From positions 1-64,000 of the forward strand of contig JAPSGI010000016.1 of assembly GCA_031177685.1 (NCBI GenBank): a stretch of DNA of 64,000 nucleotides. Reading direction: 5' to 3'. Each line of letters begins with the position of its first letter. The first letter of the stretch is position 1. The DNA comes from Solirubrobacteraceae bacterium. GTDB taxonomy: Bacteria > Actinomycetota > Thermoleophilia > Solirubrobacterales > Solirubrobacteraceae. The position numbers and the translations under genes are program-made. Positions 8,052-28,312 of this stretch are shown piece by piece. Below the pieces are notes generated by a model. That model was not told where the DNA came from, did not search any database, and worked only from the letters and a program-made list of their open reading frames with translations.

Positions 8052-9656
8052 CTACTGCTGCACGTTCCCCTCGACGGTGTAGGTGCCGGTCGTCGGCTTG
8101 AGGTTCATGTAGGTCCCGGACTGCTTGGACAGCGTGTTGCCGACGATCACGAAGCTCTCCTTCGTCGCGCCCGCGGAGTCCGACTCCGACACGTAGATGC
8201 AGGCGGCCGTGGTGCCCGAGATGTTGTTGGCGTTCCAGTAGCTGGTGCCCGCGACGCTGTCGTTCTGGAACCAGGCGATGCCGATCGGGCCGCCCGCGAT
8301 CACGTTGCCCTCGACGCGGCTGTTGCGGTAGCGCACGGAGACGCCGTTGGCCTGGAAGTTGCGGATCGTGTTGGCCACGACCCGGCTGTCCGCGGCCTTC
8401 AGGTAGATGCCGTGCTTGCCGTAGCTGATCGAGGTGTCGGTCCCCGTGTTGAGGATGCTGTTGGCCGACACCACGTGGCCCTTGCCCTGCAGGATGATCC
8501 CGGAATCGCCCGTCCCGTCGATCGTGCTGGCCTGGATCGTCCAGTTGTCGTTGGCCGAGCTGGCCGAGTTCACGCCGATCCCGACGCTGGCGATCGCCAC
8601 GTTCTGCACGACCACCTCGTCCACGCCCGTGCCGCCGGCCGAGGCGACGATGCCCTGGGCGGGGCCGGTGATCGCCAGGTCCTTGAACCCGAGCCACGCC
8701 TGGCTGGACATCCACACGCCCTTGGTCAGGGTCGCGCGGCCGGTCCCGTAGGAGCCGAAGACGATCCGCGCCGAGCCGCTGCCCGAGGTCGGGGGCATCA
8801 GCGTGGCGTCGGAGAACGTCGCGCCGGCCTGGAAGAGCACGCCGTCGCCCGGCTGCAGCGACGCGTTGTTGACCTTGTTGACCGTCCGCCACGGCGCGGT
8901 CGGGCTCGTGCCGGCGCTGGCGTCGGAGCCGGAGGGGCTGACGTAGTAGGTCTTGCCGGTGATGGACAGGGAGACCAGCGGCGGGACCTCGACGGTGCTC
9001 TCGCTCGGCTGGGGCGCCGGAGCGGTCTCCGTCGTGGGCGCCGGAGCCGGCTCGGTGGTCGGGGCCGGAGCCGGCTCGGGGGCCGGAGCCGGTGCCGGGT
9101 CGGGCGTGTTGTCGACGGTCACGAGGACCGACGTGGAGGCGGAGTTGCCGGCGAAGTCGTAGGCGGTCGCCTTCACGGTGTGGACGCCGTCGCCGCTGCC
9201 GGCCGTGTTCCACGCGCACGTGTACGGCGCCTTGCCGTCGCTGGCGATCGTGGTGCCGTCCACCGAGATCTTGACGCGCTTGACGCCGACGTTGTCGTTC
9301 GCCGTGGCCTGGCAGTCGGAGCCGCTGAGCGAGCCCGACACGGTGCCGCCGGCCGCCGGCGCGGCGACGGAGACGCTGGGGGCGATGCGGTCGCGCGACG
9401 TGGCGCGGGCACGGGCCCGTGCGCGGCGCAGCCGAGCCTGGCGCTTGCGCGCGAGGCGGGCGCAGCGCTGCCGCGAGAAACGGGCGCGGCAGGCGCGCTG
9501 GGCCTTGCGGCTGAGCTTGCCGGACTTCTTCGCGCTCGAGGTCACGGCCTTGGCGCGGGCGGCGTCGGCCTTCGGAGCGGCGGTGGCCAGGCCGGCGAGA
9601 AGCGCCGCCAGGAGCATGGCGACGATCGTCCAAGCGGGGAGCGCTCGAGTTGTCAC
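8052..9656 (-). CDS. Exported right-handed parallel beta-helix protein with Ig-like domain (copy 1)
   Basis: The 534-residue protein starts at GTG, with AGGGAGG just upstream. The signal peptide covers residues 1 to about 33. A very basic segment of about 55 residues follows (KLSRKAQRACRARFSRQR and similar), then an Ig-like domain with PSVSVAAPAAGGTVSG and HTVKATAYDFAGNSAS. A Pro/Ala/Thr linker precedes the beta-helix from about residue 235 (GKTYYVSPSGSDASAGTSPTAPWRTV) to the end. The helix carries GKHGIYLKAADSRVV, GVSVRYRNSRVEGN and GGPIGIAWFQND, a pectate-lyase-like fold with predicted carbohydrate binding or cleavage. A class I cyclic-di-GMP riboswitch-like leader lies 32 bases upstream. 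Paralogues are at 17761 and 21663. Catalytic residues cannot be assigned by eye. Confidence 0.85.
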   Translation of the reverse strand: MTTRALPAWTIVAMLLAALLAGLATAAPKADAARAKAVTSSAKKSGKLSRKAQRACRARFSRQRCARLARKRQARLRRARARARATSRDRIAPSVSVAAPAAGGTVSGSLSGSDCQATANDNVGVKRVKISVDGTTIASDGKAPYTCAWNTAGSGDGVHTVKATAYDFAGNSASTSVLVTVDNTPDPAPAPAPEPAPAPTTEPAPAPTTETAPAPQPSESTVEVPPLVSLSITGKTYYVSPSGSDASAGTSPTAPWRTVNKVNNASLQPGDGVLFQAGATFSDATLMPPTSGSGSARIVFGSYGTGRATLTKGVWMSSQAWLGFKDLAITGPAQGIVASAGGTGVDEVVVQNVAIASVGIGVNSASSANDNWTIQASTIDGTGDSGIILQGKGHVVSANSILNTGTDTSISYGKHGIYLKAADSRVVANTIRNFQANGVSVRYRNSRVEGNVIAGGPIGIAWFQNDSVAGTSYWNANNISGTTAACIYVSESDSAGATKESFVIVGNTLSKQSGTYMNLKPTTGTYTVEGNVQQ

Positions 9657-9687
9657 AGGTTCCTCCCTGAGTCATGGCCCCCGCCCG

Positions 9688-9775
9688 GATCTCTTTCGGT
9701 AGCCCGGCTGGCTCTGAGAGCCCCGTGGCTTTGCGGACCCGCCTCGCGACGGGGGTGCCTTTCTCGGGAGGTGCC
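9688..9775 (-). promoter_or_regulatory. Class I cyclic-di-GMP riboswitch (GEMM-I)-like leader RNA, copy 1
   Basis: On the minus strand the leader has GAGAAAGGCACCCC, a hairpin with a GCGA tetraloop, the hallmark CCGCAAAGCCACGGGGC (GCAAAGCC at 9734-9727), and a second arm AGCCGGGCTACCGAAAGAG. This order (purine-rich entry, GNRA-capped P2, CGCAAAGCC junction, tetraloop-receptor arm ending in ACCGA) is the GEMM-I consensus as I know it from the Vc2 RNA. The 3' end is about 32 bases from the GTG of the beta-helix gene. No terminator with a T-run intervenes, so control at translation initiation is plausible. In my hand alignment the base matching Vc2 G20 is G, which favours c-di-GMP over cGAMP. 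Confidence 0.85.
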
Positions 9776-9881
9776 TGGGTGTCTTTCTCGTCTATGGGTC
9801 CTTCGGCGCCGTTTCCCGCGGCCTTGACGGAAGTGGACGCGTCTGGACGTTTCGCCTGATTGCCCCTCTAGAGTCCCGCCG

Positions 9882-10559
9882 GTGAGCATCGGCTGGTGGA
9901 TCTCGCGCGCGTTGGGCCCGTACCGGTCGCTGCGCGGGCGCGTCGTCCGCGCCCGCGAGGCGCGGTCCGGCGTGGTGACCTCGGGCGACGTGGCGCTGGA
10001 CCAGCTCGGCATCGCCGCCGAGGGGCGCAACGCGTACGCGCCGTCGGCGGCGCGCAAGATCCGGCGTGCCCTCGCGCTGGCCGGGGTGACGCCCGAGGAC
10101 GTCTTCGCCGACTTCGGCTCGGGCAAGGGCCGCGTGGTGCTGGAGGCGGCGCGCTACCCGTTCCGGCGGGTCATCGGGGTGGAGCTCTCCGACGAGCTCA
10201 GCCGGATCGCACGGGCCAACCTCGAGGTGGAGCGCCCGCGCCTGGCCTGCCGCGACGTGGAGCTGGTGACCGCCGACCTGCTCGAGTGGCCGGTGCCCGA
10301 CGACCTGACGGTCGCGTACTTCTACAACCCGGTCACCGGGGAGGTCTTCTGGCGCGTGCTGGAGAACCTCTTCGCCTCGATGGACCGCCGCCCGCGCAAC
10401 CTGCGCATCGTGTACGCGAACCCCGAGGAGCACGACCTCGTGATGTCCACCGGCCGCGTGCGCCTGGCGCGCCGCGCGCGCGGCTGGCGTCCCGGGCGGG
10501 AGTGGTCGCGCATGTCGACGATCCACCTGTACGAGGTGACGCCGCGCGAGGGGGCGTGA
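9882..10559 (+). CDS. Class I SAM-dependent methyltransferase-like protein
   Basis: The 225-residue protein starts at GTG. The SAM-binding motif I is VFADFGSGKGRVVLEAA (residues about 78-95), preceded by AYAPSAARKIRRAL. The acidic ribose-binding residue is in VIGVELSDELS, and VELVTADLLEWPVPDDLTVAYFYNPV contains motif IV. This arrangement is found in small methyltransferases of glycan clusters. The target (a sugar hydroxyl or another acceptor) is not visible. Its stop overlaps the GTG of the deacetylase gene (GTGA, 10556-10559), so the two are translationally coupled. Confidence 0.75.
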   Translation: MSIGWWISRALGPYRSLRGRVVRAREARSGVVTSGDVALDQLGIAAEGRNAYAPSAARKIRRALALAGVTPEDVFADFGSGKGRVVLEAARYPFRRVIGVELSDELSRIARANLEVERPRLACRDVELVTADLLEWPVPDDLTVAYFYNPVTGEVFWRVLENLFASMDRRPRNLRIVYANPEEHDLVMSTGRVRLARRARGWRPGREWSRMSTIHLYEVTPREGA

Positions 10560-17760: not shown

Positions 17761-19134
17761 TCAGGCCTCCAAGTTACCCGAGACGTCGTAGGTGCCCTGG
17801 ATCGCGGGGAGGTCCAGATGGCGCCCGCCGGCGGGGGCGATGCGGTTGCCGGCGATCACGAAGCTCTCGCGCGTGGGGCCCGCCCGGTCCTCGCGCGACA
17901 CGTAGATCCCGGCGGCCGTCGTGCCCGAGATGTCGTTGCCGCGCCACGTGCTCGTGCCGGCGACCGCGTCGTACTGGAACCAGGCGATGCCGATCGGCCC
18001 GCCCGAGATCGTGTTGCGCTCGATGCGGCTGTTGCGGTAGCGCACGCTGACGCCGTTGTCGGAGAAGCCGCGGATCGTGTTCTCGACCACTACGGCGTCC
18101 ACCACCTTGAGGTAGATGCCGTGCTTTCCGTAGGGGATCGACGCGTCGTGGCCCGAGTTCGTGATCAGGTTGCCGCGGACCGTGTGCCGCGCCCCGACGA
18201 GGATCATGCCGGAGTCGCCTGCGCCGTCGACCGTGTTGGCCTCGACGGTCCAGTCGTCGCCCTCGGCGTGGATGCCGATCGAGTTGCCGGCGACCTCCAG
18301 GCCCTGCGCCGTGACGCGGTGGCCGTGCCCCTGCAGTCCCTGGGTGGCGCCCGGCAGGGCGAGGTTCTGGAACGCCAGGTCGTCGAGACCGCGGAACCAC
18401 ACGCCCTTGGGCAGGCGGGCGCGGCCCGCGCCGAAGGAGCCGTAGACGACCGGGCGGCCCTGCGCGCCTCCGCGCGCCGGGATCAGCGCGTCGTCGGCGA
18501 ACGTGGCGCCGGCCTCGAACAGGACGCCGTCGCCGGGGGCCAGCACCGCGCGGTTGGCCTGGCGCACCGTCCGCCACGCGGTCTGGGGGCTGCGTCCGTC
18601 GTCCGAATCGGAGCCGGTCGAGCTGACGTAGTACGCGGTCCCGGTGATGGGGACCGGCGTGAACGTGCCCACCCCGCCCGACGACCCGACGGCCAGCGCG
18701 CTGGCGTTCTGCGCCGGCTGGGGCGGCTGGGCCGCTGGCTTGGCGTTGCGCACGACGAAGCTGACGACGCGGGACCGGTGGTTGCCGGCGCCATCGTAGG
18801 CGGTGGCCCGCAGCAGGTGGCGCCCGTTGCGCAGCCGGCGCGTGTCCAGGCGCGCGACGTAGGGGGCGCGGCGGCGGACGGCCAGGCGGCGGCCGTTGAC
18901 GCGGAAGACGACGCGGCGCACGCGCCGGTTGTCGCGCACCCGCGTGCGGGCCCGTACGACGCCCGAGACGACCGTGCGCTTGCGGGGAGCCGTGACCGCG
19001 ATGCGCGGCGCGGAGGCGTCCGCGCGCTGCTTCGTGGCCGCCTGCACGGGAGCGGGCAGGGTCGCCGCCAGCGCCGCCACGAGGACGGACAGGCAAACGA
19101 GCGTCGTGAGGAGAAAGCGGGGCGCCAGGACCAT
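17761..19134 (-). CDS. Exported right-handed parallel beta-helix protein with Ig-like domain (copy 2)
   Basis: The 457-residue protein starts at ATG. The signal peptide covers residues 1 to about 32. A basic Ig-like domain follows (IAVTAPRKRTVVSGVVRART to HLLRATAYDGAGNHRSRVVS). The beta-helix runs from about residue 165 to the end with TAYYVSSTGSDSDDGRSP, YGKHGIYLKVVDAVVVENTI, GVSVRYRNSRIERNTISGG and PIGIAWFQYDAVAGTS. Shared blocks show it is a paralogue of the proteins at 8052 and 21663. A riboswitch-like leader lies 42 bases upstream. It heads the operon with a GT4, the Wzc-like regulator, an O-antigen-ligase-like protein and another GT4, so it is probably made together with the exported polymer. 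Polymer cleavage, epimerisation or binding are all possible roles. Confidence 0.87.
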   Translation of the reverse strand: MVLAPRFLLTTLVCLSVLVAALAATLPAPVQAATKQRADASAPRIAVTAPRKRTVVSGVVRARTRVRDNRRVRRVVFRVNGRRLAVRRRAPYVARLDTRRLRNGRHLLRATAYDGAGNHRSRVVSFVVRNAKPAAQPPQPAQNASALAVGSSGGVGTFTPVPITGTAYYVSSTGSDSDDGRSPQTAWRTVRQANRAVLAPGDGVLFEAGATFADDALIPARGGAQGRPVVYGSFGAGRARLPKGVWFRGLDDLAFQNLALPGATQGLQGHGHRVTAQGLEVAGNSIGIHAEGDDWTVEANTVDGAGDSGMILVGARHTVRGNLITNSGHDASIPYGKHGIYLKVVDAVVVENTIRGFSDNGVSVRYRNSRIERNTISGGPIGIAWFQYDAVAGTSTWRGNDISGTTAAGIYVSREDRAGPTRESFVIAGNRIAPAGGRHLDLPAIQGTYDVSGNLEA

Positions 19135-19176: not shown

Positions 19177-19263
19177 AGCTCTTTCGGCAGCTCGGCTGAC
19201 TCAGTGAGCCCCGTGGCTTTGCGGACCCGCCTCGCGGCGGGGGTGCCTTTCTCGGGAGTCGCC
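19177..19263 (-). promoter_or_regulatory. Class I cyclic-di-GMP riboswitch (GEMM-I)-like leader RNA, copy 2
   Basis: The core is almost identical to the copy at 9688-9775: a stretch of about 52 bases differs at one position, in the P2 hairpin. It has the same landmarks: GAGAAAGGCACC, a GCGA-capped hairpin, CCGCAAAGCCACGGGGC (GCAAAGCC at 19222-19215) and AGCCGAGCTGCCGAAAGAG. The receptor arm differs from copy 1 by compensated or tolerated changes (GGGCTACC versus GAGCTGCC). It precedes the ATG of the beta-helix gene by about 42 bases. It could set expression of the whole operon down to 12724, but translational control would affect mainly the first gene. Confidence 0.85.
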
Positions 19264-21662: not shown

Positions 21663-22844
21663 TCACTCGCCCTCGTTGCCCGCGACGACGTAGGAGCCGA
21701 CCGTACGGTGCAGGTTGAGGAGCTGGCCGGCGCGCGGGCGCAGGCGGTTCCCGGTGATCACGAAGCTCTCGCGGGTCGTGCCCGCGGCGTCGGCGGGCGA
21801 CACGTAGATCGCCGCGGCCGTGGTGCCGCTGATCTCGTTGGCGATCCACGAGCTGATCCCGGCGCGGTGGTCGTTCTGGAACCAGGCGATGCCGATCGGC
21901 CCGCCCGCGATGCGGTTGTGCTCGATCACGCTGTTGCGGTAGCGGACGCTGATGCCGTTGTCTGCGAAGCGGCGGATCGTGTTGCCGACGACGTGCGCGG
22001 CGGCGACGCGCAGGTAGATGCCGTGCTTGCCCCAGGGAATGTTGCGGTCGCGCCCCGTGCGTTCGATCCGGTTGCCGGCGACCGTCATGCGCTCGCCGAT
22101 CAGGATCAGACCGGAGTCGCCGGTGCGGTGGACCTTGTTCGCCGCGATCCACCAGTCGCTCCCGTTCGCGTAGAGGCCCATGCGCGCGCGGCCGATCGCC
22201 GAGCGGGTGAGGGCGATGCGGTCGCCGTGGCCGACGAAGGACGCGTGCGGGAGCGCGAGCCGATCGAACTTCAGGTCGTGCAGTCCGCGGAACCAGACGC
22301 CGCGCGGCAGCCGCGGGCGGGTGCGCCCGTAGCTGCCGAACGCGATCGGCGCGTTCGGCCGCCCGCTGCGCGGTGGCATCAGCGCGTGGCGGAACGTGGC
22401 GCCGCCGCGCAGGAGCACCACGTCCCCGGGCGCGAGCCGCGCCCGGTTCACGCGCGCCACCGTGCGCCACGGCCGCACCGGCGAAGTCCCCGCCGCCCGG
22501 TCTGAGCCGTGGGGGGAGACGTAGAACGTCCGGGCGCTCGCCGGACCGGCGCCGGCGGCGACCAGTACCGCGCAGCCCAGGACGGCGGCGCAGAGCGCGA
22601 TGCCGCGGCGCTTGACCGCACGGGCCGCTTCGTGCGCGAACGCGCGAGTCTTCGCCTCACGGACTGCGCCATGCGCGACCGCGCGGGCCTTCGCCGTACG
22701 GGCGGTGCTGGCTCCCGGCACGAGTGCGCACCTCTTCGCCGCGTGGGCCGTGCGTCCTGCCGGCGTGAGCGCGCGCGTCTTCGCCGTGTGGGCGGTGCGT
22801 CCTGCCGGGCGATACCAGGTCGTCGGGCCGTCCTTCCCGGGCAC
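21663..22844 (-). CDS. Exported right-handed parallel beta-helix protein (copy 3) with repeat-bearing N-terminus
   Basis: The protein has about 393 residues from the GTG at 22844, which follows GGGAG and lies 11 bases after the stop of the coiled-coil gene. The first about 75 residues are degenerate 13-15-residue repeats. A signal-like hydrophobic segment follows (RRGIALCAAVLGCAVLVAAGAGPASA), then the beta-helix (TFYVSPHGSDRAAGTSPVRPW, WGKHGIYLRVAAAHVVGNTI, NGISVRYRNSVIEHNRIAGG, PIGIAWFQNDHRAGIS). Copies 1 and 2 have an Ig-like domain that this one lacks. A later start nearer the signal segment is possible, but I see no standard codon just before it. The frame stays open upstream only because it is antisense to the coiled-coil gene. 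Confidence 0.78.
   Translation of the reverse strand: MPGKDGPTTWYRPAGRTAHTAKTRALTPAGRTAHAAKRCALVPGASTARTAKARAVAHGAVREAKTRAFAHEAARAVKRRGIALCAAVLGCAVLVAAGAGPASARTFYVSPHGSDRAAGTSPVRPWRTVARVNRARLAPGDVVLLRGGATFRHALMPPRSGRPNAPIAFGSYGRTRPRLPRGVWFRGLHDLKFDRLALPHASFVGHGDRIALTRSAIGRARMGLYANGSDWWIAANKVHRTGDSGLILIGERMTVAGNRIERTGRDRNIPWGKHGIYLRVAAAHVVGNTIRRFADNGISVRYRNSVIEHNRIAGGPIGIAWFQNDHRAGISSWIANEISGTTAAAIYVSPADAAGTTRESFVITGNRLRPRAGQLLNLHRTVGSYVVAGNEGE
22615..22830 (-). repeat. Degenerate 39-45-bp tandem repeat in the N-terminus of beta-helix copy 3
   Basis: Four to five imperfect units encode RTAHTAKTRALTPAG, RTAHAAKRCALVPGAS, TARTAKARAVAHG, AVREAKTRAFAHE and AARAVKRRG. On the plus strand each unit contains a version of CGCGCGTCTTCGCC followed by GTGCGTCCTGCCGG. 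The repeat lies between the proposed start and the signal peptide. If translated it makes a basic cytoplasmic tail. Confidence 0.65.
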
Positions 22845-22854
22845 GGCTCCCAGG

Positions 22855-25800
22855 TTAGCCAGCCCGGTTTCGGAGCTCCGCCAATTCGGCGCGCGCGGCC
22901 ACCGCGGCGGCCTCCGCGAGTTCGAGCATCTCGGACTGGCCCTCGGCGATGGAGGCGAGCTGCACGAGCCGCGCGGCATCGCCGACGCTGCTGGCGCTCG
23001 CGGTCCGCGCGGCCTCCTCCTGCGCTTGGCGCAGCGCCGCCTCGCCTTCGCGCACCCGACCCTGGAGCCGCGCAACCTCCTCGCGCATTGCGTCCCGCTC
23101 GGCCGCGAGGTCGGCCAGCCGCTTGCGCAGCTGGTTGACGCGCTGCTGCGCCTCGGCGATCGCCTGCCGCAGCGGCGACGCGGCCGCCCCTTCCGCCTCG
23201 GCGCGCTCATGCGCTGCCTGCGCCTCCGCCTCCGCCCGCTCACGCGCGGCGACGGCCTCGTCGCGCTCCAACACCGCGCCGTCGCGTGCGGCGACGGCCT
23301 CGTCGCGCTCGACCTCGGCCCGCGACCGCCCCGCGACCGCCTCGTCGCGCTCGACCTCCATCGACTCACGCTCCTTGCGCAGGCGCTCCAGCTCATGCCC
23401 GGCCTCGCCGAGCCGCGCCTGGAGGTCCGCGCGCTCCAGCGCGGTCTCGTCCAGCCGCGCCTGCAGCTGCTCGCGCTCCCGCGCACCCACTCGCAACCGC
23501 GCCTCCAGGCCGTCGCGCTCCTGCACGCCCGCCTGCAGGCGCACCTCGAGCTCCTCGCGCACCCGCGCGCTCTCGTCCAGCCGCATTTCGAGTTCCTGCG
23601 CGCGCTCGTCCAAGCGCACCTGAAGCTCTTCACGCTCGCGAGCCCCCTCGCCGAGGCGCGTCCGAAGCTCTTCGCGCTCGCGAGCACCGTGGTCCAGGCG
23701 CGTCTGAAGGTCTTCCCGCTCGCGAGCGCCCTCGTCGAGGCGCGTCTGAAGCTCTTCGCGTTCGCGAGCACCGTGATCGAGACGCGTCTGAAGCTCTTCG
23801 CGTTCGCGCGCGCTCTCGTCGAAGCGCGTCTGGAGCTCTTCGCGTACGCGAGCGCCCTCGTCCAACCGCGTCCGGAGCTCTTCGCGTTCGCGAGCCCCCT
23901 CGTCGAGGCGCGTTTGGAGGTCTTCGCGCTCGCGAGCGCCGTGGTCCACCCGCGTCTGAAGCGCATCCCGCTGCTGTTCGACCTCGTCGAGGCGTGCCTG
24001 GAGCTGTTCCCGCTCCCGATCGCCCTGGTCGAGGCGCGTCTCGAGCTCTTCGCGCTCCCGAGCGCCCTCCATCACCCGCGCGCCGAGCGCGTCGCGCTCC
24101 CCGCCGAGCTCCTCCACACGCGCTTGGAGCTCTTCGCGTTCCCGAGCGATCTCGCCCAGCCGCGCCTGAAAGTGCTCCCGCTGCCCGACGGCCTCCTCCA
24201 GCCGGGTCTCGAGCTGTTCCCGCTGCTCGAGGGCCTCCTCCAGCCGGGTCTCGAGCTGTTCCCGCTGCCCGAGGGCCTCCTCCAGCCGCGCCTCGAGCTG
24301 CTCCCGCTGCCCGAGGCCCTCCTCCAACCGCGCCTCGAGCTGCTGGCGCTGTCCGAGGGCCTCCTCCAGCCGGGTCTCGAGCTGTTCGCGCTGCCCGAGG
24401 GCCTCCTCCAGCCGGGTCTCGAGCTGCTCCCGCTGCCCGACGGCCTCCTCCAGCCGCGCCTCGAGCTGCTGGCGCTGTTGGGCGCTCTCGCCCAGCTGCG
24501 CCTGAAGCTGTTCGCGCTCGCGCGCGCCTTCGTGAAGCCGGGCCTCGAGCTGCTGGCGGTGTTGCGCGCTCTCGCCCAGACGCGACCTCAGCGCCTCGCG
24601 CTCGCGGACGCTCTCATCGAGCCGTGACGCGAGCTCTTCATGCTCGCGTGCGTTCTCGTGCAGTCGGGCCTCGAGCTGCTCACGGCCCCGGACGGCCTGT
24701 TCCAGCCGCGACTGGAGTTCTGCGCGCTCCCCCTCGGCCTCGTCCAGCCGCGCCTCGAGACCTTCGCGATCCGTCGCCGCCTGGCTCAAACCTATCTGCA
24801 GCGCCTCGCGTTCCTGCGCGCCGTCGACGAGTCGGGCCTGGAGTGCCTCGCGTTCTCGCACCGCCTGTTCGAGTGCGGCCTGGAGCTGTTCGCGTTCACC
24901 CGTTTCCTCGCTCAGCCGCGCCCCGAGGGCTTCGCGTTCCCGGGCGGCCGCATCTAGCCGCGCCTGCACTTCATCCGCGTGTCGGGCGGCGTCGCTCAGC
25001 TGTGCTTCCAGCTCCGCGCGCTGGCGGGCGGCGTCGCTCAGTTGCGCTTCCAGCTCTGTGCGCCGGCGGGCGGTGTCGCTCAGCTGCGCCTCAAGCTCTT
25101 CGCGCTGACGCGCGCTCTCGCCGGACACGGCCGTGACGCGCTCCGCGAGCCCGTCGCGTTCGGACGAGACGTCCGCCACGCGCTGCGACAGCACGTCTCT
25201 TTCGGCCACGACGGTTTCGAGCCGTTCGGCCACCGCGTCGCGCTCGGTGCGCAGCTGGGAGGCCAGATCGGCAAGGGTGCCGCGCTCGGCCGCGACGGCG
25301 TCGAGCTGCGCGGCCAAGCCGTCCCGCTCTGCCTCCATCTCCAAGAGCTGCGCGGCGAGCCGGTCGGTTTCGGCGGTGCTTTCGGACGCCTGTTCGGCGA
25401 GCCGGTCGCGTTCGGCCGCGATTTCGGAGATCCGCGCAGCGAGCCGGTCGGTTTCGGCCGTGCTTTCGGACGCTTGCTCGGTGAGGCGGTCGCGTTCGGC
25501 CGCGACGGTGTCCAGCCGCTCGGTCAGATCGTCGCGCTCGCGCTCGGCGGTTGCTGCGCGCTCTGTCAGCACGGCGCGCTCGCGCTCGGCGGTCGCGGCG
25601 CGCTCGGTCAGATCGTCGCGGTCGCGCTCGGCGGCCGCGAGGCGGGCCGTTTGATCGTCGCGCTCGCGTTCGACTGCGGCGATCTTGTGGGTCCGGTCGT
25701 CGCGCTCGCGCTGGACGACCGCGATGCGCTGCTCGAGCGCGTCGCGCTCGGCCTCGAGCTCCGCGATTCGCTCGGCGACGCTGCCGCGGTCGCGCTCCAG

Positions 25801-27321
25801 CTCGGCCGCTCGGGCGGACGCCTCCTCGCCTGCCTGCTGCGCTTCGGCTAGGTGGGCGGAGAGCGCCTCCGTCTCCTCCGCATGCCGGGAGGCGAGCTGA
25901 TCGCGGTCGCGCTCGAGCTGCGCGACCTGCTCGGCGAGCGCTTCGCGCTCGTCGCCGATCTGCGAGAGCCGTGTGGCGAGGCCGTCTCGCTCCGCGGCGA
26001 CCTCCTCCAGGCGCGTCCTCGAAGTCTCGTCCCGCGCGGCGGCGGCAGCGCGCTGGGACTCCAGCTGCGCGATGCGCGCGTCCGCGGCGCGCGCCCACTC
26101 GGCCGCCGCCGTGAGCTCGGTCGCGAGTGCTTCACCGCGCGCCGCCTCGGCGGCGACTTCCGACTGCAGGCGCTCGGCGCGCTCGGCCGCCTCAGCGACT
26201 CCCGCCTCCGCGGTCTCCGCGCGCGCGGTCGCCTCGGCGAGCTGCACCTCGAGCGCCTCGCGCCCGTCCGCGGCCTCGGCGAGCTGCGCCTCCAGCGCCG
26301 CGCCCCCGTCGGCGGTCTCCGCTAGCTGCGCCTCGAGGGCCTCACGTCCCCGGGCCGCCTCGGCGAGCTGCGCCTCGAGGGCCTCACGTCCCCGGGCCGC
26401 CTCGGCGAGCTGCGCCGCGAGCGCCTCGCCCCCGTCCGAGGCCTCGGCGAGCTGCGCCTCGATGGTCTCGCGACGTTCGGCGGCCTCGGCGAGCTGCGCT
26501 TCCAAAGTCTCGCGCCGCTCGGCGGCCTCGGCGAGCCGGTCTTCCAGGGCGCGGCGCCCGTCGGCCGCCTCGGCGAGCTGTCGCTCGAGGGCTGCGCGCT
26601 GCTCGACCGTCTCGGCGAGAGTCGACTCGGCGGCCGCCAGCCGCGCGCGCGTCTCGGAGAGCTCGCTGCCGAGCGGCTCGACTTTGTCCTCCGCCTCGGC
26701 CGCCCGGGCTTCGAGCGCGTGGATGTGGCCCACCCGGTCGGCGAGGGCCGCCTCGAGCTTGCCGATGCGCTCCGTCGCGGCCGCCGCCCGGGCCTCGGCG
26801 GCCTCCGCGCGCTCCGTCAGGTCCTCCACCCGCGCCTCCAGCCGCGCGACCTCCACGCGAAACGCGCGCAGCTCGGCGTGCGAGCGCTGCCGCCGCCGGT
26901 CGCCCGCGCGGCGGCGGTCCTCTCCGGCCGGCGGGCCTTCGTCGTCCTCGCGGCGCCGGTCCGGGGTGGCACGCCGTTCCCGCAGTCCCAAGTCGCCGGG
27001 GGCGGGCTCGGCCGGCGCGGGGAGCGGAACCGGGCCGCCCGGGCCCTCGAGCGAGAACGTCGTCTCCGGATCCTCTAGCAGCGCCGTAGGCGCGGCGTAG
27101 GAGGCGGACCAGTCCTCGCCGCCGGAGCGGATGCCGGCCTCCCGCGGATCCAGCGGTGGCAGCCGGTGCCGCTGCGGTCCCTCGGCGACGACCAGCGTGG
27201 GGGCGGCATGCGCGCCCTCGGGCAGCGTCCACCGTCCCCGTACCCGCAACAGCGCGTGCATCGGCGTGGCGGGTATCAGCTCGAAGCGCTCGAGCTCGAA
27301 GCTGGGCTGGTCTTGAATCAT
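22855..27321 (-). CDS. Giant coiled-coil protein with exact 14-residue repeats
   Basis: The 1,488-residue protein starts at ATG (MIQDQPSFELERFELIPATP). Residues 1 to about 115 look like a small beta-rich domain (HALLRVRGRWTLPEGAHAAPTLVV). A basic, acidic and Pro-rich hinge follows (about 120-185, DRRREDDEGPPAGEDRRRAG). From there to the end it is almost entirely coiled coil. Long stretches repeat every 14 residues, for example QLETRLEEALGQRE and ELQTRLDEGARERE. Leu or aliphatic residues at positions 2 and 6 and Ala at 9 fit two heptads per unit. There is no signal peptide, membrane helix or enzyme motif, so it is probably a cytoplasmic filament, scaffold or ruler. It is transcribed divergently from the UDP-xylose-synthase-like gene, and the third beta-helix gene follows 10 bases later. 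Confidence 0.85.
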   Translation of the reverse strand: MIQDQPSFELERFELIPATPMHALLRVRGRWTLPEGAHAAPTLVVAEGPQRHRLPPLDPREAGIRSGGEDWSASYAAPTALLEDPETTFSLEGPGGPVPLPAPAEPAPGDLGLRERRATPDRRREDDEGPPAGEDRRRAGDRRRQRSHAELRAFRVEVARLEARVEDLTERAEAAEARAAAATERIGKLEAALADRVGHIHALEARAAEAEDKVEPLGSELSETRARLAAAESTLAETVEQRAALERQLAEAADGRRALEDRLAEAAERRETLEAQLAEAAERRETIEAQLAEASDGGEALAAQLAEAARGREALEAQLAEAARGREALEAQLAETADGGAALEAQLAEAADGREALEVQLAEATARAETAEAGVAEAAERAERLQSEVAAEAARGEALATELTAAAEWARAADARIAQLESQRAAAAARDETSRTRLEEVAAERDGLATRLSQIGDEREALAEQVAQLERDRDQLASRHAEETEALSAHLAEAQQAGEEASARAAELERDRGSVAERIAELEAERDALEQRIAVVQRERDDRTHKIAAVERERDDQTARLAAAERDRDDLTERAATAERERAVLTERAATAERERDDLTERLDTVAAERDRLTEQASESTAETDRLAARISEIAAERDRLAEQASESTAETDRLAAQLLEMEAERDGLAAQLDAVAAERGTLADLASQLRTERDAVAERLETVVAERDVLSQRVADVSSERDGLAERVTAVSGESARQREELEAQLSDTARRRTELEAQLSDAARQRAELEAQLSDAARHADEVQARLDAAAREREALGARLSEETGEREQLQAALEQAVREREALQARLVDGAQEREALQIGLSQAATDREGLEARLDEAEGERAELQSRLEQAVRGREQLEARLHENAREHEELASRLDESVREREALRSRLGESAQHRQQLEARLHEGAREREQLQAQLGESAQQRQQLEARLEEAVGQREQLETRLEEALGQREQLETRLEEALGQRQQLEARLEEGLGQREQLEARLEEALGQREQLETRLEEALEQREQLETRLEEAVGQREHFQARLGEIAREREELQARVEELGGERDALGARVMEGAREREELETRLDQGDREREQLQARLDEVEQQRDALQTRVDHGAREREDLQTRLDEGAREREELRTRLDEGARVREELQTRFDESAREREELQTRLDHGAREREELQTRLDEGAREREDLQTRLDHGAREREELRTRLGEGAREREELQVRLDERAQELEMRLDESARVREELEVRLQAGVQERDGLEARLRVGAREREQLQARLDETALERADLQARLGEAGHELERLRKERESMEVERDEAVAGRSRAEVERDEAVAARDGAVLERDEAVAARERAEAEAQAAHERAEAEGAAASPLRQAIAEAQQRVNQLRKRLADLAAERDAMREEVARLQGRVREGEAALRQAQEEAARTASASSVGDAARLVQLASIAEGQSEMLELAEAAAVAARAELAELRNRAG
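23576..24645 (-). repeat. 42-bp coding tandem repeat array (about 25 units)
   Basis: This is the DNA form of the 14-residue coiled-coil repeat. The most uniform block is about 24190-24475, with seven units built on CCAGCCGGGTCTCGAGCTG plus a variable half. Unit length stays 42 bases without indels over the array. The two halves differ in style: above about 24180 units encode LGQRE, below it GARERE. This suggests two separate expansions. Confidence 0.85.
26230..26600 (-). repeat. Second 42-bp coding repeat block, including one exact duplication
   Basis: About eight units encode variants of GREALEAQLAEAAR. Two neighbouring units at about 26329-26412 are identical at the DNA level, which points to a recent duplication. 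An 84-bp repeat pair (ERDRLAEQASESTAETDRLAA) lies separately at about 25310-25480. Confidence 0.75.
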
Positions 27322-27364
27322 CGCGCCCGGATTTTCCGGTGCCTGACGATATCCTCCCAGGCGC

Positions 27365-28312
27365 ATGCCGACCTGCCTGGTCACGGGCGGCGCGGGCTTC
27401 CTCGGGTCCCACCTCTGCGAGGAACTGCTGCGCCGCGGCAACCGCGTCATCTGCGTCGACAACCTGGAAACGGGTTCTTTGGCGAACATCGAGCACCTTC
27501 GGGACCCCACTTTCGTCCACCTGAACCTCGACATCATCGAGCCGTACTTCGTGGAGGACGATGTGGACTTCGTGTACCACCTGGCCTCACCGGCCTCCCC
27601 GATCGACTACCTCCGGCTCCCGCTGCACACGCTGAAGGTGGGCTCGCACGGCACGCATCACACGGTCGGGCTGGCCAAGCACAAGCGGGCGCGCTTCCTC
27701 CTGGCCTCCACGAGCGAGGTCTACGGGGACCCGCAGGTCCATCCCCAGCCGGAGTCCTACTGGGGCCACGTGAACCCGATCGGCCCGCGCGGGGTCTACG
27801 ACGAGGCCAAGCGCTACGCCGAGGCGCTGACCATGGCCTACCACCGCCAGCAGGGCGTGGACACCGCGATCGTGCGGATCTTCAACACCTACGGCCCGCG
27901 CATGCGCCCCCACGACGGCCGCGCGATCCCCACCTTCCTGCGCCAGGCCCTGCAGGACCGCCCGCTGACCGTGTTCGGAGACGGGTCCCAGACGCGCTCC
28001 TTCTGCTACGTCGACGATCTGGTCCGGGGACTCATCCTGCTGGCCGAGTCCGGCTACCACGCCCCGGTGAACATCGGAAATCCCAAGGAATTCACGCTCC
28101 TCGAGCTGGCCAACGAGGTCATCGAGGTGACGGGCTCGCGCTCGGAGATCGTCTTCGAGGCGCTCCCGCGCGACGACCCGCAAGTCCGCCAGCCGGACAT
28201 CTCGCTGGCCCGCGAGGTGCTGGGCTGGGAACCCGAGATCGACCTCCGCGAGGGCCTGCGCCGTACGATTGAGGCGTCGGGCATCGAGGAGCTGGTCGGA
28301 GCGGGGCCGTAG
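27365..28312 (+). CDS. UDP-glucuronate decarboxylase (UDP-xylose synthase)-type NAD-dependent SDR
   Basis: The 315-residue protein starts at ATG. The NAD-binding [10 protein letters not shown] lies at residues 8-17. The catalytic Thr/Ser-Tyr-Lys set is in [11 protein letters not shown] near 117 and YDEAKRYAE near 145. Signature blocks of the UXS branch are present: [44 protein letters not shown] and [11 protein letters not shown]. It would convert UDP-glucuronate to UDP-xylose, a donor for one of the many glycosyltransferases here. Reaction specificity is inferred from these blocks. It starts 43 bases from the divergent coiled-coil gene. Confidence 0.85.

Follow-up and report, generated by a model that had tools for sequence, protein, structure and literature searches.

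Among the closest described counterparts of the element reported here is Vc1 of Vibrio cholerae (RF01051), which lies upstream of gbpA, the gene of a secreted, surface-acting protein; Vc1-dependent gbpA expression is reduced when c-di-GMP is lowered (PMC4744006). In Vc2 the ligand is contacted by G20, A47 and C92 (PMC4744006), and A48 and the C44-G83 contact are likewise conserved (PMC3764141). Polysaccharide degradation was listed among the functions of the GEMM regulon in a comparative study (PMC3766115). We analysed a stretch of 64,000 nucleotides from a Solirubrobacteraceae genome, referred to as the window, whose minus strand carries from 9768 to 9694 what is, judged by its sequence, a genuine and ordinary class I c-di-GMP (GEMM-I) riboswitch, here named copy A. 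Copy A and Vc1 have the same fold, a GNRA loop and the G20/A47/C92 pocket, and both are located 5' of a gene for a secreted protein acting at the surface. Copy A differs from Vc1 in its short P3, its GC-richness, the beta-helix product and the bacterial lineage. The features of the window are the following:

8052..9656, minus strand: beta-helix protein A, 534 aa (Pfam Big_7 7.8e-15, Beta_helix 1.2e-7; AlphaFold model and Foldseek)
9661..9668, minus strand: Shine-Dalgarno sequence AGGGAGGA, 4 nt before GTG 9656
9694..9768, minus strand: class I c-di-GMP riboswitch aptamer, copy A, with P1, P2 with GCGA loop, and P3 (two Rfam models and pocket residues)
9766..9781, minus strand: candidate anti-RBS strand CACCCAGGCACCUCCC, which shares bases with the 5' strand of P1 (proposed from pairing energy and minimum-energy fold)
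17761..19134, minus strand: beta-helix protein B, 457 aa, paralogue of A (47% identity, 392 aligned positions)
19182..19256, minus strand: class I c-di-GMP riboswitch aptamer, copy B (RF03167 61.9 bits, RF01051 54.1 bits, same pocket residues)
21663..22604, minus strand: beta-helix paralogue C, start approximate, no aptamer found upstream (profile and upstream search)

The aptamer of copy A

The whole window was searched with cmscan against all 4227 Rfam families. RF03167 (c-di-GMP-I-GGC) matched at 9768-9694 on the minus strand with 63.8 bits (E 9.6e-13; gathering cut-off 59 bits), in a full-length alignment (1-80) that is not truncated. At the same place RF01051 (c-di-GMP-I), the parent model and the one that the first-pass annotation had proposed for a search of this region, gave 58.0 bits over model positions 1-87 (gathering cut-off 35 bits). 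A match by chance is not credible. The models of c-di-GMP-II riboswitches gave no match in the window. All parts of the GEMM-I order that had been read from the letters are present, namely the GAGAAAGGCA entry, P2 capped by the GCGA (GNRA) loop at 9747-9744, the CCGCAAAGCC junction and the AGCCGGGCUACCG 3' arm. In the Rfam alignment, with our own transfer of the Vc2 numbering to the Rfam columns, the equivalents of G20, A47 and C92 are G9759, A9732 and C9699, and those of A48 and of the interhelical contact C44-G83 are A9731, C9735 and G9708, all of them canonical. With two Rfam models above their cut-offs and all pocket residues in place, the earlier assignment to class I was borne out; the location given there, 9688-9775, is correct as to place, while its ends overshoot the element by 6-7 nt on each side. 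On these grounds we regard copy A as very probably a functional c-di-GMP riboswitch that controls beta-helix gene A, with binding of the ligand predicted.

The beta-helix proteins and the exopolysaccharide locus

Protein A starts with GTG 9656, 3' of AGGGAGGA. Its N terminus is signal-like and is followed by a Big_7 Ig domain and, after a Pro-rich linker, by a right-handed beta helix, a fold indicated by Pfam Beta_helix and by Foldseek. The mean pLDDT of the AlphaFold model is 69 (moderate confidence). The best matches in sequence and fold are the right-handed beta helices of GH136 lacto-N-biosidase, PL6, PL9 and AlgE, at identities of 12-15% and TM-scores of about 0.24-0.38 with a model of this moderate confidence. 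The neighboring genes encode EPS_sugtrans (polyprenyl glycosylphosphotransferase), a Wzc-like kinase, a Wzy_C ligase and glycosyltransferases. Both the secreted beta-helix gene 3' of the element and the exopolysaccharide locus, as described in the first-pass annotation, were thus recovered, and protein A probably acts on a polysaccharide, putatively the exopolysaccharide.

In total, the genome holds six close beta-helix paralogues, located in the window (contig C11) and at C4:88923-90263, C13:49850-50791 and C1:117926-118798. The best match to the beta-helix protein in 36 relatives reached only 77 bits in an alignment search, and a search for related loci with the same protein gave only two distant matches; by sequence, the six paralogues represent a lineage-specific expansion. 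Directly upstream of paralogue C lies a 1560-aa coiled-coil repeat ORF (window 22855-27537, minus strand).

Leader and expression platform

Copy A ends 37 nt 5' of GTG 9656 on the same strand, and a divergent gene at 9882 leaves only about 113 nt upstream for the transcript start. The minus strand of the leader showed no terminator-like site, which favours translational control, our best guess for the level of regulation. The RBS including the GTG pairs with the strand 9781-9766 at -21.2 kcal/mol (p 0.0017 against dinucleotide shuffles, chosen post hoc), and the same strand forms a competing duplex with the linker (-17.6). In the minimum-energy fold of unbound copy A the RBS is closed. When the pairs of P1 were imposed in silico, the Shine-Dalgarno sequence remained largely paired and the RBS opened only partly. 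The duplex of RBS and flank together with the competing pairing of flank and linker suggests an ON switch. In such a switch, c-di-GMP from the GGDEF enzymes of the cell would bind between P2 and P3 and stabilise P1. In the absence of ligand, the strand 9781-9766 would be available to sequester the Shine-Dalgarno sequence and the GTG by base pairing; formation of P1 and the alternative pairing of strand and linker would release the RBS, so that high c-di-GMP would lead to more beta-helix protein A, alongside a pilin, an ice-binding-like protein and paralogue B.

For the gene of copy A we give the ON direction about even chances, since the opening of the RBS is partial, copy B lacks the anti-RBS pairing (p 0.54) and no enrichment was seen among 80 related leaders, which leaves the direction a guess. 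An anti-RBS platform common to the related leaders was rejected (8 of 80 at p<0.05, mean p 0.46). Possible, although rather doubtful, is that the same aptamer works as an OFF switch, its bound fold near the start codon blocking the ribosome or stabilising the closed form. This would agree with the short distance to the start codon of 36 of the 83 related elements (≤15 nt), at which the folded aptamer could get in the way of the 30S subunit, and with the Shine-Dalgarno sequence that stays mostly paired under forced P1. It is at odds with the unbound minimum-energy fold of copy A, in which the RBS is already closed, and also with the general experience that adhesin, pilus and matrix functions usually increase with c-di-GMP, as well as with the fall of Vc1-dependent gbpA expression at lowered c-di-GMP.

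Copy B and further elements of the genome

Copy B (19256-19182, minus strand), which had not been part of the earlier finding, carries identical pocket residues, with the G20 equivalent at 19247. Whole-genome analysis yielded four class I elements: copies A and B, one on contig C12 and, with a lower score (35.1 bits for RF01051), one on C4. The two outside the window are located 5' of a type IV pilin gene and of a gene for an ice-binding-like surface protein. The element of 35.1 bits (L004:1501-1577) lies 86 nt 5' of the gene of an ice-binding-like (PF11999) secreted protein, and this pairing recurs in a related genome (G008, L105). The genome encodes 16 GGDEF and 6 EAL domains of c-di-GMP enzymes.

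An aptamer was sought before the four other close beta-helix paralogues, one of them within the window, and was not found. Presence in only two of the six paralogues, along with the diverged expression platforms of A and B, would fit a decayed riboswitch copy without regulatory role. We consider this very improbable, as the two copies agree at about 90% of the positions of the aptamer core while the flanks are far less alike, strong likeness of the leaders being confined to the aptamer and about 10 nt 3' of it, and as all pocket residues are kept.

Elements in related genomes

RF03167 matches were found in 35 of 61 genomes, counting the own genome, and RF01051 matches in 84 of the 199 class genomes. 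Genes 3' of the elements were assigned with a simple ORF rule based on GC at the third position, and a few of these assignments are unreliable, including those of G003_C17, G035, G060 and G056_C4. Pilin genes follow 23 of the 83 leaders with a called gene; further products are CAP, subtilase, GHL15, Laminin_G_3, cellulase-like, collagen-like and ice-binding proteins and one flagellin. Going by sequence, most of the products look exported. Beta-helix or pectate-lyase-like products are located 3' of the element in five other genomes, G030 (L044), G127 (L188), G119 (L195), G109 (L201) and G084 (L194), and two of the five contain a Big_7 domain. The product of L044 shares only 26% identity with protein A, so that recruitment of the riboswitch to beta-helix genes looks repeated.

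Regarding the flanks, pilin leaders of the relatives (L043, L053, L059, L062, L069, L071 and others) and the own copy (L001:1578-1501) show GCC[A/G]G on the 5' side and CUGGC downstream. Both motifs together occur in 17 of the 23 pilin leaders as opposed to 1 of 60 others, and compensatory-looking pairs are present in G038 (GCCAAGG/CCUUGGC) and G052 (GUCAG/CUGAC). The two motifs are a candidate for a helix enclosing the aptamer in pilin leaders; in some of these a third strand, CCAG near the Shine-Dalgarno sequence, could compete with it. Tandem units of riboswitch and pilin gene, two in number and ~800-900 nt apart, were seen in L081 (G020), L167 (G077) and L162 (G082). In relatives such as L037, L051 and L091, where the element lies ≤15 nt from the start codon, the Shine-Dalgarno sequence abuts P1, and several start-proximal elements can form UUGCC/GGCAA around it.

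Ligand class

For copy A the highest bit score was obtained with RF03167 (63.8 vs 58.0), yet both copies carry an A at the position of Vc2 A47, where the consensus of this model has a G (CGCGAA). We infer that 'GGC' in the name of the family stands for G20-G47-C92. CGCA is found in essentially all of the 83 related elements, whose rows were inspected by eye. The A at position 47 in the copies of the window, together with CGCA in the relatives, places the elements among the ordinary c-di-GMP riboswitches even though RF03167 scores higher, and filing under c-di-GMP-I-GGC was rejected. Riboswitches for cGAMP (GEMM-Ib) have an A at position 20; filing there was rejected because of the G at this position (9759, and 19247 in copy B). 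That a specificity variant of either kind, cGAMP or c-di-GMP-I-GGC, senses a different signal here is therefore highly improbable; the ranking of the Rfam models speaks for it, and both diagnostic bases and a genome rich in GGDEF and EAL domains speak against it. The best-scoring Rfam model alone does not settle which ligand is sensed; for that, the diagnostic base has to be inspected.

Significance of the riboswitch

The first-pass annotation had called the element known, as it is, and its use with this protein family in a Thermoleophilia-like locus, to the best of its knowledge, undescribed. The latter is weakened by the five other genomes of the class and by the published GEMM control of polysaccharide degradation (PMC3766115). 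The finding is sound but ordinary. None of the papers searched connected these riboswitches with Thermoleophilia, although this does not prove that no such paper exists. Tentatively, much of the control that c-di-GMP exerts on the cell surface in this class may run through a c-di-GMP-I regulon of genes for exported products (pilins, ice-binding-like proteins, CAP, subtilases, GHL15 and beta-helix proteins). The riboswitch would have been recruited to beta-helix genes independently and more than once, and in pilin leaders a lineage-specific helix around the aptamer would serve as expression platform. In the organism studied here, the riboswitch most likely ties the output of a secreted beta-helix protein to the signalling molecule of biofilm formation. 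For a lineage that has been little studied, it provides a direct, testable link between c-di-GMP and beta-helix proteins outside the cell, and the genes located 3' of the elements outline a surface regulon.
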